A stretch of 32,879 nucleotides of DNA from Pseudomonadota bacterium (lineage in GTDB: Bacteria; Pseudomonadota; Alphaproteobacteria; Micavibrionales; UBA2020): contig JAJZVA010000017.1 of the NCBI GenBank assembly GCA_021845905.1, forward strand, positions 1 to 32,879. Reading direction: 5' to 3'. Position 1 is the first letter of the stretch. The number at the start of each line of letters is the position of its first letter. The position numbers and the translations under genes are program-made. The notes beneath the pieces are model-generated. The model saw only the letters and a list, made by a program, of their open reading frames with translations. It did not search any database and was not told the DNA's origin. Positions 9,152-29,520 of the stretch are shown here, in pieces.

Positions 9152-9202
9152 GGGGGTATCATAGGGGGTATAATGTTAATTTTCCCGCGTGGAGATACCC
9201 CC
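9152..9202 (+). promoter_or_regulatory. Integrase promoter with repeated GGGGGTAT boxes
   Basis: A consensus -10 box TATAAT (9169-9174) sits inside the second of two direct GGGGGTAT boxes (9152-9159 and 9164-9171), without a good -35 hexamer. GGGGGTATC (9152-9160) is also repeated exactly inverted as GATACCCCC (9194-9202), which covers the end of the Shine-Dalgarno and reaches the start codon. This could be an operator, or an mRNA stem that limits integrase translation. Confidence 0.45.
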
Positions 9203-9203
9203 A

Positions 9204-10424
9204 ATGCCCTTGACGGATACAGCCTGCAAGAACGCCAAAGCTCTAGAAAAAGCCTATAAAAAGGCAGATTCTCAAGGGCTATATCTTCAAATAATGCCCA
9301 ATGGGGCTAAATACTGGCGCTTAAAATACCGATTCCACGGCAAGGAAAAGGTGCTGGCGCTAGGGGTATATCCCGAAGTTTCGCTGGCCGAGGCGCGGTT
9401 CAAAAAGGACGATGCCCGTCGCCAACTGGCCGAGGGGCTTGATCCGTCCCTTGAAAAACAGAAGCAAAAGCAACTGGCCTCGATAAGCGCGGAAACGACC
9501 TTTGAGGCCGTGACCCGTGAATGGCACGCGCTGAATACGGAGAAATGGTCATCGAACTACGCCGCCGACCTGTTGCACCGGATGGAAAGCGATATTTTCC
9601 CCGCTATCGGCGCTGTACCCATAGCGTCGATTACCGCACCGCACCTGCTATCCGTTATGAAACAGGTTGAAAAGCGCGGGGCGTTGGAAATTGCCCGCCG
9701 CCTTTTGCAGACATGCAGTCAGGTATTCCGCTATGCCATTGTTACGGGCCGGATGGACAGGAACCCCGCCGCCGACCTGAAAGGAGCTTTGAAGCCGCCG
9801 AAAAAAGAACACTATGCGGCGCTGGAAGCCAAAGACCTGCCGGAATTTTTGCAGGCGCTTGAACGGAACGATGCCCGCCTATATCAATACACGCGCCATG
9901 CCATCAAGCTGATGATGCTGACATTTGTCCGCACAAGCGAACTCATTAACGCAAGCTGGAAAGAACTTGATTTTGAGGCGAAGCAATGGAATATCCCTGC
10001 TGAACGCATGAAAATGAGAAAGCCGCACATCGTCCCGCTTTCGCGGCAGGCGCTGGAAGTGCTGGAAGTCCAAAAGGAACTGACCGGAAAATGGCAATGG
10101 GTATTCCCCAATCAGGTGCGCCCCATAAAATCCATGAGCAACAATACAATCCTCAAAGCGCTTGAGCGCATGGGTTATAAAGGCCGCATGACGGGCCACG
10201 GCTTCCGCGCTCTGGCTATGTCCACGATCAAGGAACAACTGCATTACAGGCATGAAGTCGTTGACCGTCAACTGGCCCACGCGCAGCGCAACAGCGTTGA
10301 TGCCGCCTATGACCGCGCCAAATTCCTCGTTGAGCGCAAAAAGATGATGCAGGACTGGGCCGATTATCTCGATGCCGTGGCCTCGCAGGGCAAAGTTATT
10401 GTTGGTAAGTTTTGTGAGGGGTAA
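9204..10424 (+). CDS. Tyrosine recombinase/integrase, DUF4102 type
   Basis: A 406-residue site-specific integrase of the P4/CP4-57 class. The N-terminal DUF4102 arm-binding domain (MPLTDTACKNAKALEKAYK, then GLYLQIMPNGAKYWRLKYR) spans about residues 1-90, a SAM-like core-binding domain about 98-200, and the catalytic domain follows. All catalytic positions are visible: R243 (FVRTSEL), H332 and R335 (GHGFRALA), H359 (QLAHAQ) and nucleophile Y369 (AAYDRA). The family is usually about 400 residues, so it is full length. ATG 9204 is chosen because GGAG lies 9 bases upstream and the family begins MPLTDT; a GTG at 9189 is also in frame. It is adjacent to tRNA-Ser, its likely target. Confidence 0.95.
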   Translation: MPLTDTACKNAKALEKAYKKADSQGLYLQIMPNGAKYWRLKYRFHGKEKVLALGVYPEVSLAEARFKKDDARRQLAEGLDPSLEKQKQKQLASISAETTFEAVTREWHALNTEKWSSNYAADLLHRMESDIFPAIGAVPIASITAPHLLSVMKQVEKRGALEIARRLLQTCSQVFRYAIVTGRMDRNPAADLKGALKPPKKEHYAALEAKDLPEFLQALERNDARLYQYTRHAIKLMMLTFVRTSELINASWKELDFEAKQWNIPAERMKMRKPHIVPLSRQALEVLEVQKELTGKWQWVFPNQVRPIKSMSNNTILKALERMGYKGRMTGHGFRALAMSTIKEQLHYRHEVVDRQLAHAQRNSVDAAYDRAKFLVERKKMMQDWADYLDAVASQGKVIVGKFCEG

Positions 10425-20730: not shown

Positions 20731-20758
20731 TTGCCAACACTCCTCTTTCTGGTAAAGT
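20731..20758 (+). promoter_or_regulatory. Candidate promoter of the structured leader
   Basis: TTGCCA (20731-20736, 5/6), 16 bp, TAAAGT (20753-20758, 4/6). A start near 20765 would put the whole fold at 20815-20953 in the transcript. This is a weak match, offered because it is correctly placed. Confidence 0.35.
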
Positions 20759-20814
20759 ATTGTCACGACTGTGTGGATTCCATGCCGAATCAGGTATGAG
20801 CGTCTGCACTGTCT

Positions 20815-20953
20815 GGAGCTTGAAAACTCCGCATCTGGCGGTTTTGTGAACCGCAAAATCACTCCTCGACTATGGTCGGGGAGGCATACGTTTATATAAC
20901 AGCTCGCAAGAGTGAAGGCGTATGCGGTCACCCAGATGTGGCTTTTCAACTCC
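20815..20953 (+). ncRNA. Multibranched structured RNA element, class not recognised
   Basis: A long closing helix pairs 20815-20818 with 20950-20953, 20820-20826 with 20943-20949, and 20829-20838 with 20932-20941 (21 pairs, one G-T wobble, small interruptions). Inside are three hairpins: 20839-20843/20849-20853, a 9-bp stem 20862-20870/20875-20883 with a TATG loop, and 20884-20890/20919-20925 capped by a short CTC/GAG stem with a GCAA tetraloop (20906-20909). Such a four-way junction is unlikely by chance. It ends 22 bases before the ATG of the secreted-protein gene, so a cis-acting leader is one reading; an independent RNA or a DNA-level structure are others. The fold also exists on the minus strand, so strand is inferred. 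Confidence 0.6.
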
Positions 20954-20975
20954 CCGATCACCAGAGGGATACCAC

Positions 20976-21569
20976 ATGAAAAGCCGTTCTTATTTTTTTA
21001 TTATTTGCATCTGCGCCATACTCTTTTTGCCAAGAATTTCTCAAGCGCAGACAGACTTCCAGCTTAGAACAATGCCGGATGGAAGCATTGAACAATACGA
21101 TGCCACCCAAGGCCGTTGGAATTTTAGAATTTGGCCAGATGGACACTCGGCTATGTTTTTCCCCTCCGATAACAAGTGGACGATAAACCCAGCATCAAAA
21201 AACTCGTGGAAAGTTATGCCTGACGGTACCCTTGAAGGAGTAGATGGAGATGGAAAAACGATAAGGCAGTTACAAAATGGAAATGTTGAGGTTCTAAAAA
21301 AAGTTTCCATTCTCGGTATTTCACACAACAAATGGGAATTACTCATGACCGCACAACAGCGGAGACAGCGGAGAAACGAGGCTCAAGAAAAATGGCATCA
21401 ACAGGAACAAGCAGAAGAAAATCGCGAATACCACCAAAAAATGCTTGCAATTCAGGAAGAACAACTGCGCCAAATGCGGATGAGAAATTTTATGCAGGCC
21501 GTGCCACCTCCAACGATGACTAATTGCAACCCTGCTATTGGTGGTGGTGTTAGTTGTACATCATGGTAA
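20976..21569 (+). CDS. Secreted protein with PDG repeats, unknown
   Basis: A 197-residue exported protein. A Sec signal peptide (1-23: KSRSYFF, a hydrophobic core, then SQA-QT) is followed by short repeats with a turn motif: TMPDGSIEQYD, IWPDGHSAMF, VMPDGTLEGVD, LQNGNVEVL, each a likely beta-hairpin of about 20-25 residues. A charged Gln/Glu/Arg coiled coil spans about 120-165. The C terminus has two cysteines, in NCNPAIGGG and SCTSW. ATG 20976 is chosen over the in-frame ATG at 20922 because GAGGGA lies 7 bases upstream and the signal peptide starts there; the earlier start would lie in the structured element. No family is recognised. Confidence 0.65.
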   Translation: MKSRSYFFIICICAILFLPRISQAQTDFQLRTMPDGSIEQYDATQGRWNFRIWPDGHSAMFFPSDNKWTINPASKNSWKVMPDGTLEGVDGDGKTIRQLQNGNVEVLKKVSILGISHNKWELLMTAQQRRQRRNEAQEKWHQQEQAEENREYHQKMLAIQEEQLRQMRMRNFMQAVPPPTMTNCNPAIGGGVSCTSW

Positions 21570-22125
21570 GGAATGTTGTTGAAGTTACCTGCCCTTCTTG
21601 CGAAGTCTGATAAGCATTTTCAATTTTGACTGTGGCCTGAACGGTATCACTCTCAACCACACCGACATAGTATTTTTCTAGCATTTTAAGGCTACTCCAA
21701 CCCATCAGTGCCGCAAGGGTTTTAGGCGGTACCCCTGCGCTTGCTGCGTATGTGGCACAGGTGGCGCGTAGATCGTGTATCCGTATGTCTTTAATGCCCG
21801 TTTTGTCTCGTAACCCATCCCAAGCTCTTGACAAGGTAATCACAGGATAAAGCCTGAAAAGGTCTTCCAGTTGCTCCCAAGTGAAAGATACCAGCTTTCC
21901 GGCCTTTATTTCGAGGTATGAGCCAGCTTTATAGCTTTTGCATTGGTATACAGCCCCGTGTGGTAGACGTATTTTAAGCCATGCTGTAATGCCCCGTTCA
22001 CCTGCGCGTATACCAATGCCTCGGATATAGCGTGGACGGTTTAAAGTCTGCCCTTTGATAGAGTTAAGCAGTTCATCGTATTCGGCATACTTACGCTTTC
22101 TGCCTTTCGGTGTTTGTAGTTCCAT
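21550..22125 (-). pseudogene. Tyrosine integrase with internal deletion
   Basis: 191 residues made of two pieces of a normally 400-residue integrase. The N-terminal part (about 1-88; RKRKYAEYDELLN, RGIGIRAGERGITAWLKIRL) is the arm-binding domain. It jumps near LFRLYPVITLSRAW to the C-terminal part with H-x-x-R (IHDLRATCATYAAS), LMGWSSLKMLEKYY and the nucleophile Tyr. The core-binding domain and the box I catalytic Arg are missing, so it cannot recombine alone. The reading frame is kept across the junction and the start is intact, with a perfect AGGAGG 6 bases before ATG 22125. It might still bind att DNA. It diverges from the intact integrase, across the tRNA-Gly core. Confidence 0.8.
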
Positions 22126-22428: not shown

Positions 22429-22449
22429 TCTGCACAGTTTCTGCACAGT
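22429..22449. repeat. Tandem TCTGCACAGT repeat before the integrase
   Basis: TCTGCACAGT occurs at 22429-22438 and 22440-22449 (period 11). It shares TGCACA with the tandem repeat at 22201-22222. It lies at the integrase ribosome-binding site, so a protein bound here would also block expression. Confidence 0.5.
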
Positions 22450-22462
22450 GGGAGGTGAAGAG

Positions 22463-23758
22463 ATGCAGTTCATTATTGATAAGGAGCAGTTGAAACCAGG
22501 CCTTATCATCTTCCGACGCGGCGATGTCGGGCACGACAATTATTATTGCCGCGTGAGAATCCAGAACGAGGACCGCTACAAGACCGTCTCACTGCGCACG
22601 GCGGACCGGCAGACGGCGCGCGACTACGCCCTGGATCAATATGCAGACATTCGCTTTCGGGTGAAGCACGACGTTCCCGTATTCAACCGCCCCTTCTCGC
22701 AGGTAGCGGAGGAATATGCCGAGGCGCAGCAGCGTCGTGCCAACGCCGGCGAGGTGAGCCAGGCGCGCGCGATGAACGTCAAAAACAAGATCGATGGCCC
22801 GCTCAATGCCTATGTCGGGACCACACAGGTGCATCTCATCACACAGGAGCGCTGGGCGGATTATCCCCTCTGGCGCAGGGAGAACGGCAAGGGCCGCCGC
22901 AATGGCATCATCAGCGATGCCACCATTCGTATTGAAATGGCGATCTTCGCCGCCATCATGAATTATGCAATTGGCAAACGCTATGTGCCCGCGAGCCATC
23001 GCTTCGAGGGGATGCCCAAGCTCAAAACCAACCGGCGCGACGAGTTCACGCTGGAGGAATACCGGGCATTACACACCAAAGGCCGCAAGTGGATCAGGGA
23101 AGCGACCACGCCGCAGGGCGAATGGTATCGTCAGATGTGCTACAACTTCATTCTTATCATGTGCAACACCGGGATGCGCCCGCCGGAAGCCAAGAACCTG
23201 CGCTGGCGTGACATCACCGGCGCCAAGGACAAGGACGGACAGGAAATCCTCGTCATCTATGTCCAGGGCAAGGGCAAGACGCGCAAGCTGATCGCGCCCA
23301 AGAGCGTCGGGAAATATCTGGATCGCGTCCGCAATCTTTCCAAGGCAACCAAGCCGGACGACCCCGTGTTCACGATCATCAACGGCAAGCCTGCGAAGTG
23401 GCTTTACCGAGATACGGTCGAGGAACTGCTCAAATACACCGAACTGCGCGAGGGACCGAGCGGCATTCCACGTACTACTTATTGCTTCCGCCACACCTAT
23501 GCCACGCTAAGGCTTTCCTCCGGGGTGGATGTTTATATCCTCGCCCAGCAAATGGGCACTTCGGTCAAGATGATCGAGCAGCATTATGGGCATGTGAATA
23601 CCATCAAGCATGCCGACCGCGTGCTCATGGGCATCGGCGGATGGGAAGAGATGCACGCCGAAATGGATGCCGAGGTCGAGGCAGAGGAGAAAACGGCAAA
23701 AGCCGCGGCCTCCATCAAGGCGAAACAGCCGGTGAAACCGCGCCGCCCCAAACGCTAG
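22463..23758 (+). CDS. Tyrosine recombinase/integrase of the mobilizable element
   Basis: A 431-residue site-specific recombinase. An N-terminal arm/DNA-binding part (about 1-75) and a SAM-like core-binding domain (about 76-185) are followed by the catalytic domain with R239 (NTGMRPPEAKNLRW), R343-H344 (YCFRHTYATLR) and nucleophile Y375 (EQHYGH). Box II has Tyr340 where most relatives have His (H-x-x-R); this is seen in some members and need not abolish activity. A Lys/Ala-rich tail closes the protein. The start is ATG 22463, with GGAGGTGA 4-5 bases upstream; the GTG at 22448 is in frame but lies before the Shine-Dalgarno. The gene runs away from the tRNA-Gly att core, as integrases of such elements do. 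Confidence 0.93.
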   Translation: MQFIIDKEQLKPGLIIFRRGDVGHDNYYCRVRIQNEDRYKTVSLRTADRQTARDYALDQYADIRFRVKHDVPVFNRPFSQVAEEYAEAQQRRANAGEVSQARAMNVKNKIDGPLNAYVGTTQVHLITQERWADYPLWRRENGKGRRNGIISDATIRIEMAIFAAIMNYAIGKRYVPASHRFEGMPKLKTNRRDEFTLEEYRALHTKGRKWIREATTPQGEWYRQMCYNFILIMCNTGMRPPEAKNLRWRDITGAKDKDGQEILVIYVQGKGKTRKLIAPKSVGKYLDRVRNLSKATKPDDPVFTIINGKPAKWLYRDTVEELLKYTELREGPSGIPRTTYCFRHTYATLRLSSGVDVYILAQQMGTSVKMIEQHYGHVNTIKHADRVLMGIGGWEEMHAEMDAEVEAEEKTAKAAASIKAKQPVKPRRPKR

Positions 23759-25052: not shown

Positions 25053-25238
25053 ATGACCACCACGACAGAAACAATGACTTCAAAAGCAAAACAGCCACCC
25101 GCCTTCTACATCTTCACGCAATCCAAGGACGGCAAGAACCAGCGCGTCGGCGCGGCCTTCCGCCACAGTAAGGGCAACGGTTTCAACGTCCTGATCGGCA
25201 ACACCCGCTACGTGGCCTTTCCCCCGAAAGCGAAGTGA
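25053..25238 (+). CDS. Small protein cotranscribed with the ArdC-like gene
   Basis: 61 residues (MTTTTETMTSKAKQPPAFY...). The second half (FYIFTQSKDGKNQRVGAAFRH, then GNGFNVLIGNTRYVAF) suggests a small beta-rich fold. AAGGAG lies 8 bases before ATG 25053, and the stop is 11 bp before the ArdC-like start, so the two form an operon. Similar short frames accompany ArdC genes on proteobacterial elements as far as I recall. Function unknown. Confidence 0.7.
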   Translation: MTTTTETMTSKAKQPPAFYIFTQSKDGKNQRVGAAFRHSKGNGFNVLIGNTRYVAFPPKAK

Positions 25239-25249
25239 GGAGAACCGCC

Positions 25250-26137
25250 ATGACACATCACGTCAAATCCGACATTTACACCCGCGTCACGGAGAAAATC
25301 ATCGCCGCCCTCGAACAGGGCGAGCGCACCTGGGTTCCGCGCTGGAACGCGGCGCACCAGGCGGGGCCGGTCTCGCGCCCCTTGCGGCAGAACGGCATCC
25401 CCTACAGAGGCATGAACGTGCTTCTGCTCTGGGCGGAGGCGATGGAGAAAGGCTATGCCGCGCCCATCTGGATGACCTTCAAACAGGCGCAGGAGCTCGG
25501 CGCACACGTCAAAAAGGGCGAGAAAGGCGCTCTGGTCGTTTACGCCAACACCGTCGACAAGACGGAAACAAACGAAAACGGCGAAGACATCGAGCGGAGA
25601 ATAGCCTTCATGCGCGGCTACACCGTGTTCAACGTCGAGCAAGTCGAAGGACTGCCGCAGCATTACTACGCAAAGCCTGCCGATCCCCTGCCGGTCACGG
25701 AACGCATGGCAGCCGTGGAGGATTACATCACGGCCACCGGCGCGGACATCCGCCATGGCGGAGACAGCGCCTACTACGCGCCCGGGCCGGACTTCGTGCA
25801 AATGCCGCAGTTCGAAACCTTCAAAGACAAGGAAGGCTATTACGCGACGCTCCTGCACGAGCTGGTGCACTGGTCCGGCGCGAAACGCCGCCTCGACCGC
25901 AGCTTCGGAGAAGGCAAGTTCGGCAACGAAGCCTACGCCCGCGAGGAGCTGGTGGCGGAACTCGGCGCGGCTTTCCTCTGCGCAGGTCTTAACATCACCC
26001 CCGAAGTCAGGGACGACCACGCCCCCTACATCGCAAGCTGGCTCGAAGTGCTAAAGCGCGACAAGCGGGCGATATTCAGCGCGGCTGCTCATGCGCAGCG
26101 GGCGGCGGATTATTTGGGTGGGTTGCAAAAGCAGTAG
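25250..26137 (+). CDS. ArdC-like antirestriction protein with zincin domain
   Basis: A 295-residue protein of the ArdC/DUF1738 family. The N-terminal ssDNA-binding domain (about 1-130) begins DIYTRVTEKIIAALEQGERTW and includes GIPYRGMNVLLLW. The C-terminal metallopeptidase-like domain has H203-E204-L-V-H207 (HELVHWSGAKRRLDR) and a downstream EELVAELGAAF helix that may give the third ligand. Known ArdC proteins bind single-stranded DNA entering a recipient and protect it from restriction. Here it would protect the element after mobilization. The start is ATG 25250 with GAGGAG about 8 bases upstream. The length is normal for the family. It is the last gene of a two-gene unit, ending at a possible terminator. 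Confidence 0.9.
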   Translation: MTHHVKSDIYTRVTEKIIAALEQGERTWVPRWNAAHQAGPVSRPLRQNGIPYRGMNVLLLWAEAMEKGYAAPIWMTFKQAQELGAHVKKGEKGALVVYANTVDKTETNENGEDIERRIAFMRGYTVFNVEQVEGLPQHYYAKPADPLPVTERMAAVEDYITATGADIRHGGDSAYYAPGPDFVQMPQFETFKDKEGYYATLLHELVHWSGAKRRLDRSFGEGKFGNEAYAREELVAELGAAFLCAGLNITPEVRDDHAPYIASWLEVLKRDKRAIFSAAAHAQRAADYLGGLQKQ

Positions 26138-27591: not shown

Positions 27592-29520
27592 CTATCTCCT
27601 CGCGTTGAACCATGCAGACGCCTTGGGTGGTGGCGTCGTTACCTTGACCTTCTGTTTCGGGTCGAAAGCGGATTTCCCTCCATCGGGCTGCAATCCTGCA
27701 CGGCGAAGGATTTCTTTGGTTTCAAGGACACTGGAGCGCAGGTTGACCGTTGCCATCGACGGATCGACCGGAGGACGCGGACGGGGCGTGAACACGGTTT
27801 TCAGAAGCTCGCTGTTGCTCTGCTGACGCAAACTTGCGCTATAGGCACGCTCGTCCAGCCGTTGTTCCGGGGGCGGAGGCATGACACTGACCTCCCATCG
27901 CGGGATGCCGTTCAGGGCATAGCTCATGTTCATGACGACGTCGTAAAACTGCCTGTTGGCTGCGCGTTTTCGCGCTTCTTCCTCCTGTCTGACCTGCAAC
28001 TCCGCATATTGCCGGATATATTCATTAAATTGCGCCTGTCGTTCCACGTATTCGCGCTCTCTATCCTGTGCGCGTGTTTCCCGTGTTTTTTCTTCTGTCT
28101 TTTTGAGATGAAGCGTTTCAAGCGTAACCTCAATCATGCGCCGGATCGCCGCGCCCATATCGTCGGAGATGAGATTACTCTCCAGTGCAGATTGCAACAT
28201 GGCAAGATTGCCGGAGAGCAGCGCGATTTTGCTTTGCACCTCGGCCATTTGTTCCTTGAGGGAGATAACATCGGCGGATTTAACGGTTTGTGGCTCCGTG
28301 GCCGTCGCCACATAGCCCGCAATCTCCCGCCGGATACGCAGAGCCTCGGCCTTTTGTTCTTCCTTGTAAACCTTGACGGTCTTTTGCAGTTCCTGCCGCT
28401 CCAGCAGGTGCGACCGCACGAGGTTATGAAGCTCCTGCCTGTCACGCTCCAGCGCTGATCGGGTCTCGGCCTCGTTTTGGGCGCGGACTTTTTTATACGC
28501 GCCTGAAGCCTTGTGCCAGATGCCGCGAAACCCGCGCGGCAGACGCGCCACGCGGGCATGCGTTTCCCGTGTCCAGCGTTCCTGTTGCCGGTCGATCAGT
28601 TCCTGACGCTCTTTGCGCTGCACCGCCACCATGGCGCGGATTTCGCGCACCAGCGGCTTGCGGATGTCTTTGGCGCGGGCGCGGGATTCCGCGAGATAGG
28701 TTTTTAAATTCTCGCTCATGCGGGCGGCGAGAAAATCCTTCGCCTGCCCGATGGCGGGCAGGTTTTCCGGTTTGCCAAGACGGGCTTTAAGGTCGCGCGT
28801 GCCGATGTCGAGCCATCTTGTGAGGGAATAGACGCCGCCTATAATGTCGAGCGCGACGAAGCCGCGCCGGTCGCCACGGGCGAGTAAAAAACCGCGCTCT
28901 TGCAGAGCGTGGGCAAAGGTTTCCTTGCTGTCGGACTGCTCCCACGCGCTTTTGAGCAGGGTTTTGAGCGCCTGCGGGTCTTGCGAGAAGCGCACAGCCT
29001 GCCTGTACTCATGGCGCGTCAACTGCCACGGGCTGCGATCAGACGCGCGTTGCATGCCCTTGGGCAGTTTCCAGCCATATTTAAGAAACAAAAAGCGCGA
29101 GATTTCCATGAGCTTCAGTTTGAAGTGACTCATGCGGATGGCGATCATCCGCTGCGCATGGTCCGACCATTTGAGTCGCGACCAGACGCAGTGGCAATGC
29201 CGCCGCCCGTTTTTCTCGTGAAACACGATGATGCGCGGCTGATCGACCAGACCCAGCTTTTTCTCTACGTCATCTATGGCAGATTCGAAGTCTTCGACAG
29301 GCACGTCGGCATATTCCGGCGGACTTAAAGAGAGCGAGAACATAAACTGGCGGCATTGCGTGCCGCGACTGATGGCCTCGATTTCCTGCAAGGCCCCCGC
29401 AAGATCGTCGGAGACGAAGCCGCGTATCTCGTGGACGGTGATATGGTCGTTTTCGTCACCATTCAGCAGGTGTTTGGCCAGTTCCCCGGTTCCTCTGCGC
29501 TGACTGGCCTTGAGGATCAT
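27592..29520 (-). CDS. Relaxase/mobilization nuclease (MOBP-like)
   Basis: A 642-residue relaxase that would nick oriT and lead the strand into a recipient. The N-terminal nuclease domain (about 1-200) shows the metal-binding motif H101...H108-x-H110 (VFHEKNGRRHCHCVW) and the conserved FVSDDLAGALQEIEA and QFMFSLSLSPPE. No Tyr occurs in the first 69 residues; H17 in AKHLLN sits where motif I Tyr is expected. A middle region and a long Glu/Arg/Gln-rich coiled coil (about 280-500) follow, and the C terminus has a Pro-rich tail. The start ATG 29520 overlaps the mobC stop by 4 bp. The family is by pattern; similar proteins occur widely on rhizobial and sphingomonad elements. Confidence 0.88.
   Translation of the reverse strand: MILKASQRRGTGELAKHLLNGDENDHITVHEIRGFVSDDLAGALQEIEAISRGTQCRQFMFSLSLSPPEYADVPVEDFESAIDDVEKKLGLVDQPRIIVFHEKNGRRHCHCVWSRLKWSDHAQRMIAIRMSHFKLKLMEISRFLFLKYGWKLPKGMQRASDRSPWQLTRHEYRQAVRFSQDPQALKTLLKSAWEQSDSKETFAHALQERGFLLARGDRRGFVALDIIGGVYSLTRWLDIGTRDLKARLGKPENLPAIGQAKDFLAARMSENLKTYLAESRARAKDIRKPLVREIRAMVAVQRKERQELIDRQQERWTRETHARVARLPRGFRGIWHKASGAYKKVRAQNEAETRSALERDRQELHNLVRSHLLERQELQKTVKVYKEEQKAEALRIRREIAGYVATATEPQTVKSADVISLKEQMAEVQSKIALLSGNLAMLQSALESNLISDDMGAAIRRMIEVTLETLHLKKTEEKTRETRAQDREREYVERQAQFNEYIRQYAELQVRQEEEARKRAANRQFYDVVMNMSYALNGIPRWEVSVMPPPPEQRLDERAYSASLRQQSNSELLKTVFTPRPRPPVDPSMATVNLRSSVLETKEILRRAGLQPDGGKSAFDPKQKVKVTTPPPKASAWFNARR

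Follow-up and report, generated by a model that had tools for sequence, protein, structure and literature searches.

A divergent relative of sRNA-Xcc1 complementary to the translation start of an accessory gene on an alphaproteobacterial mobile segment

Antisense RNAs serve immunity in phages P1 and P4. The C4 RNA of phage P1 blocks the ribosome site of ant (PMC12197685), and P4 CI pairs with seqA and seqC, which lie on either side of it (PMC4825925). sRNA-Xcc1 (RF02221) was detected by Northern as an RNA of ~100 nt, its accumulation as a small RNA of about 88 nt being known for Xcc only, and predictions led to the proposal that it targets many mRNAs (PMC2996969); in Xanthomonas integrons it occurs in cassettes and has been reported upstream of symE (PMC12444791). 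Our literature search found no published link between sRNA-Xcc1 and antirepressors.

The RNA described here lies in a window of 32,879 nt (the whole stretch of DNA analysed), in which positions 8936-29900 form a mobile segment with a tRNA-Ser(GCT). The segment holds an integrase-like ORF (9189-10424), a second integrase (22448-23758), an integrase fragment on the minus strand (21550-22125), an ArdC-like gene (25235-26137), a relaxase gene (27592-29520) and a gene for a MobC-like protein. The structured RNA originally predicted, which immediately precedes a secreted-protein gene within a mobile segment, proved genuine. The gene (20976-21569, + strand) encodes 197 aa with a signal-peptide-like N terminus; it has no Pfam match, and no homologues of its protein were found in GTDB contigs. 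We lean towards reading the RNA as a C4/CI-like leader that controls this accessory gene and from which an antisense RNA is probably processed.

Fold and parts of the leader RNA

Folding of 20811-20970 reproduced the proposed interrupted closing helix of 21 pairs (4+7+10) around three hairpins. The + strand had a folding energy of -67.2 kcal/mol, whereas shuffled sequences averaged -45.0 (z -5.36) and none of 200 was as good, which answers the control set beforehand. It had also been suggested that both strands can fold; this holds for the + strand but is only weakly true of the minus strand, whose fold is less specific and whose z of -2.34 is unremarkable. The difference between the two values identifies the + strand as the RNA, and all features below are on that strand.

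A promoter-like site, TTGCCA-16-TAAAGT (20731-20758), and a predicted 5' hairpin preceding the core (20767-20813) are both retained in a second copy in the host genome (C25:59214-59450), which is 88-89% identical. The 5' arm of the closing helix, P1, has a constant part, seqA (GGAGCTTGAAAAC, 20815-20827), recognised by fold and covariation, and continues as the hypervariable upper P1 5' arm (CCGCATCTGG, 20829-20838). Hairpin H1 (20840-20860) rests on the fold. Hairpin H2 (20862-20883, CTCCTCGAC-TATG-GTCGGGGAG) is the 9-bp stem with a TATG loop that had been foreseen, and its 3' half doubles as the 5' strand of an alternative helix. Hairpin H3 (20884-20925), supported by fold and covariation, contains the GCAA-capped inner stem, likewise foreseen, and a conserved internal-loop AAGG. 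The upper P1 3' arm (CCAGATGTGG, 20932-20941) is hypervariable like its partner, both arms being defined by variability and compensated changes. It runs into seqB, the switch strand (GGCTTTTCAACTCCCCGATC, 20940-20959), for which covariation, complementarity and folds indicate three competing partners. The Shine-Dalgarno GAGGGA (20964-20969) and the ATG at 20976 lie where they had been placed; in the OFF fold the former pairs with the TCCC of the switch strand. Overlapping the start codon is seqC (TGAAAAGCC, 20977-20985).

Relation to sRNA-Xcc1 and distribution of the family

No riboswitch, ribozyme or other Rfam class matched the leader RNA at gathering score, in line with the earlier failure to match it to a known riboswitch or ribozyme. 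In a permissive Rfam search, the only meaningful match was sRNA-Xcc1, at 20875-20966, with 38.1 bits (E 2.8e-5), which fails the RF02221 gathering cut-off of 53 bits. The match spans the full-length model (1-87), the closing stem of RF02221 around H3 and its second small hairpin are present, and the segment, folded in isolation, closes the alternative helix, which covaries. Conversely, a covariance model of the leader RNA (R1), built from 11 homologues (alignment A1), reached 8 of 31 canonical Xcc1 loci, most of them full-length, with a best E of 0.0014. The window RNA is thus a divergent relative of sRNA-Xcc1, remotely homologous to it and by score no member of that Rfam family.

RF02221 itself had matches in 37 of 150 genomes from the phylum, with five in that of the host. 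Upstream of most RF02221 loci there is a similar 5' half, with a GGGG..AAAACCCC arm followed by GCGG and, in 21 of 29 loci, by a terminator hairpin whose loop resembles CCCGTCAG. This conserved terminator loop upstream of sRNA-Xcc1 (L015-L044) possibly belongs to a separate short IsrK/seqA-like RNA. Recognisable genes after Xcc1 loci mostly encode phage antirepressors: among 27 canonical-type downstream proteins (from 25 Xcc1 loci and 2 viral contigs), nine matched antirepressor-type domains (4 pRha, 3 Bro-N, 1 P22_AR_N, 1 KilA-N).

R1 matches were found in 98 of 142 genomes of the order, in 53 of 385 genomes of the class and at about ten places in the host genome. BLAST detected a copy on pSINAC03, a conjugative plasmid of Singulisphaera, and, starting from that copy, further ones on Shinella, Rhizobium and Agrobacterium plasmids. 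A DNA-pattern search returned 55 named contigs, nearly all alphaproteobacterial. The strict first DNA pattern had no match in viral contigs and BLAST against phages gave only 30-nt chance matches; a looser pattern matched 16 viral contigs. The leader RNA belongs to a family of mobile-element RNAs that is very common yet has largely gone unrecognised; its members appear to turn the downstream gene on or off through the choice of one pairing partner among several matching strands. Among individual cases, one genome of the order has a tandem pair of copies 122 bases apart (L142, 735-891 and 1014-1169), one host copy, on the opposite strand, directly abuts a truncated integrase gene at its end (L045, 6248-6888), and an Ancylobacter contig with two RNA-pattern copies also carries a fluoride riboswitch (L205, 7745-7809).

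So many copies in mobile islands, plasmids and viral contigs, together with the presence of Xcc1 in integron cassettes (PMC12444791), might suggest an element that acts as DNA, either a folded attC-like recombination site or a gene-carrying miniature transposon. We regard this as highly improbable, because G-U pairs are abundant and folding is confined to one strand, a promoter-like site and a conserved terminator/Shine-Dalgarno spacing are present, and no terminal repeats were seen by eye in aligned paralogue units.

Competing helices and the translation start

Covariation in homologues had been named beforehand as a check, and it was strong. Two-sided changes already affected 23 of 42 pairs in A1; among 96 distinct sequences, pairing holds in 94.8% of cells, and the pairs with two-sided changes number 35 of 42. 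The covariation score of these sequences was 0.639, compared with 0.211 for shuffled alignments and ≤0.112 with slid partners, in an alignment that was fitted to the model and so favours P1, H2 and H3.

The alternative helix (20874-20883/20950-20959) is absent from the model and the alignment was not fitted to it. Even so, pairing holds in 94.5% of its cells, and 47 cells are two-sided where shuffles gave 11.3; no shuffle did as well. In the C25 copy, a change within this helix has its counterpart in each of the three strands (GAC/GTC/GATC to AAC/GTT/AATC). Since the alternative helix covaries although it lies outside the model, the 3' strand appears, from sequence comparison, to be under selection for two or more pairings that exclude one another. 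The mutually exclusive partners of the switch strand are three: the 5' arm, the 3' half of H2, and the Shine-Dalgarno/start region. The original prediction had envisaged a two-state switch near the Shine-Dalgarno through pairing of 20812-20816 with 20961-20965; that pairing exists, but the main alternatives are 20874-20883/20950-20959 and a stronger pairing that had been missed, 20940-20948/20977-20985.

The last of these pairs GGCTTTTCA (20940-20948) with TGAAAAGCC (20977-20985) over 9 bp across the start codon. In the minimum-energy fold of 20761-21000 (-93.6 kcal/mol), the Shine-Dalgarno and start codon are paired with seqB; the same stretch with the alternative helix forced gave -86.3 kcal/mol, and energy alone does not settle which state is ON. 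In the C25 copy, TGAAAAGCC is an island of conservation with insertions around it and a different reading context, and its retention despite changed surroundings argues for selection on pairing.

Complementarity at other loci was scored by local alignment; a duplexfold score failed to discriminate (long loops). At canonical Xcc1 loci, seqB is complementary to the upstream arm (z 8.7, 0 of 50000 permutations) and fits its own Shine-Dalgarno region better than those of other loci (z 8.0, 0 of 50000 permutations), as is clear by eye in L036, L020 and L032. Among the relatives of the window RNA, the seqB of a locus suits the downstream sequence of that locus better than it suits the others' (z 3.9, 2 of 20000 permutations), most clearly in L087, L076, L062 and L070; the average effect is small, and a constant CTCC/GGAG pairing is all that many loci have. 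Several window-clade relatives have no seqC pairing beyond CTCC/GGAG, and individual pairings are short.

These complementarities bear on the idea that the RNA is an independent trans-acting sRNA gene for other targets, such as host mRNAs, whose position before a gene is incidental. Most copies are followed by terminators, and sRNA-Xcc1 has been credited with many predicted mRNA targets (PMC2996969), as this idea would have it. A Shine-Dalgarno and start codon lie ~10-60 nt downstream in most copies, however, in a region specifically complementary to the RNA, which makes an incidental position improbable.

The C4/CI-like reading would assign one state to each partner of seqB and the adjoining CTCCCC. 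Pairing with the 5' arm seqA would leave the Shine-Dalgarno and start free; pairing with the Shine-Dalgarno/start region seqC would block translation; and pairing with the 3' half of H2 would close an Xcc1-like small RNA whose open region holds seqB. Such an RNA, if processed from the leader, might act in trans, with repression of the gene as the presumed outcome.

Expression platforms, cargo and the hypervariable helix

A terminator-like hairpin directly follows the core in 65 of 98 copies, a count that includes four loci whose class is void (L010, L012, L013, L014). The 5' arm of the terminator is usually the conserved GGTCACCAGAG, after which come a GGGAG-type Shine-Dalgarno and the start codon. 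In the subgroup of the window, a conserved CACCAGAG runs directly into the Shine-Dalgarno with no terminator between them, so that control should be translational here; in most relatives, which have a Rho-independent terminator, it would operate by termination. Genes behind alpha-clade RNAs encode lipoproteins, signal-peptide and membrane proteins, HTH regulators, RovC/DUF2285-like regulators, pilin-like proteins, nucleases and candidate defence proteins; most are not antirepressors, and they have no common pathway. The RNA precedes a RovC/DUF2285-like regulator carrying LDPDVDD..TxYDEQHFVTYLRLLDA in five Rhizobiales/Paracoccus contigs (L186, L196, L212, L226, L227), and the same small ORF family lies behind four host copies.

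Variability within the RNA peaks in upper P1 (20829-20838/20932-20941), whose changes are nearly always compensated. The mean pairwise difference was 0.66 there, compared with 0.43 in the H3 stem and 0.41 in the rest. In the C11 paralogous units of the host genome, 14 of 27 sites differ in the arms versus 14 of 212 elsewhere (p 2e-8), and the window and its C25 copy follow the same trend (7/20 versus 29/190, p 0.035). Because the arms diverge faster than their surroundings, stability alone is unlikely to account for them, and a copy-specific address, a role suggested by sequence variation, fits this hypervariable, self-complementary helix. Near alpha-clade RNAs the search turned up no third copy of this arm, with one of four tests marginal. 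Avoidance of similar arms within genomes was a trend only, and a comparison of flanks revealed no clear orthologues of the arms (L010, L012, L013 and L014 being void in it).

The four paralogous RNA plus small-ORF units of the host genome (L111-L114: G000 C11:65675, C11:89979, C13:148257 and C13:186003) are ~90% identical outside the variable helix. They carry VRKDDSIHARNMKSLAEELRRMSRL and are dispersed rather than in obvious islands. Two plasmid copies, L013 (2521-2683, Rhizobium pTi-type) and L014 (2522-2684, Agrobacterium vitis plasmid), are flanked by genes for an MFS transporter and an AraC-type regulator and differ mainly in the variable helix.

That one helix outpaces the rest in near-identical paralogues is awkward for a purely cis-acting riboswitch or attenuator, in which the H3 region would bind a ligand or protein, P1 versus the Shine-Dalgarno or terminator would be the platform, and nothing would act in trans. 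The conserved H3 internal loop (GTATGTYCA / AAAGG) is compatible with an aptamer, one core serves both terminator and Shine-Dalgarno platforms, and two competing helices covary. Aptamer control sits poorly, however, with the lack of a common pathway among downstream genes and with the related Xcc1 being a free small RNA that is often found before antirepressors; on these grounds we consider it rather unlikely.

Under the C4/CI-like reading, a helix specific to each copy would prevent cross-action among the many copies that share a genome. More tentatively, the family could represent a very large, unrecognised superfamily of immunity RNAs of mobile elements in which each copy has its own hypervariable, self-complementary address helix and the many accessory-gene cassettes of a genome are individually silenced by antisense RNA from their own leaders without cross-talk; sRNA-Xcc1 would then be one branch and not primarily a virulence sRNA. 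If so, what looked like an orphan fold would be a common regulatory module of accessory genes in islands, plasmids and phages of Alphaproteobacteria, sRNA-Xcc1, hitherto read as a virulence-linked sRNA of Xanthomonas, would gain a mechanism, and the family would supply naturally occurring orthogonal RNA switches that owe their specificity to one exchangeable helix.

Among described RNAs, sRNA-Xcc1 shares with the window RNA the closing stem, H3 with its capped inner stem, the 3' seqB region, a mobile context and the whole-locus architecture, including an upstream seqA arm. Unlike sRNA-Xcc1, the window RNA has an H2 whose 5' half duplicates the 3' strand and an H3 with another loop; it lacks a terminator between seqA and the sRNA part and has a secreted protein as cargo. 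The C4 families (clan CL00128) gave no covariance-model match to the window RNA up to E 10, and it is outside the Rfam C4 family. As in P1/P7 C4, the RNA nevertheless lies upstream of, and is complementary to, the ribosome site of the gene that it would control, and Xcc1 relatives often precede antirepressor genes. Antirepressor control, the other mark of C4, applies to a third of the Xcc1 relatives but is absent in the window, where the downstream gene, lacking any Pfam match, is not an antirepressor. For P4 CI and the Gifsy-1 IsrK arrangement no Rfam similarity to the window RNA was found; P4 acts by transcription termination, whereas the window RNA appears to act on translation. Like them, it has the order seqA - seqB - seqC with the antisense part central, and, as in P4 CI, its seqB has one complementary site upstream and another downstream (20940-20948/20977-20985 in the window; z 8.7 and 8.0 at canonical loci).
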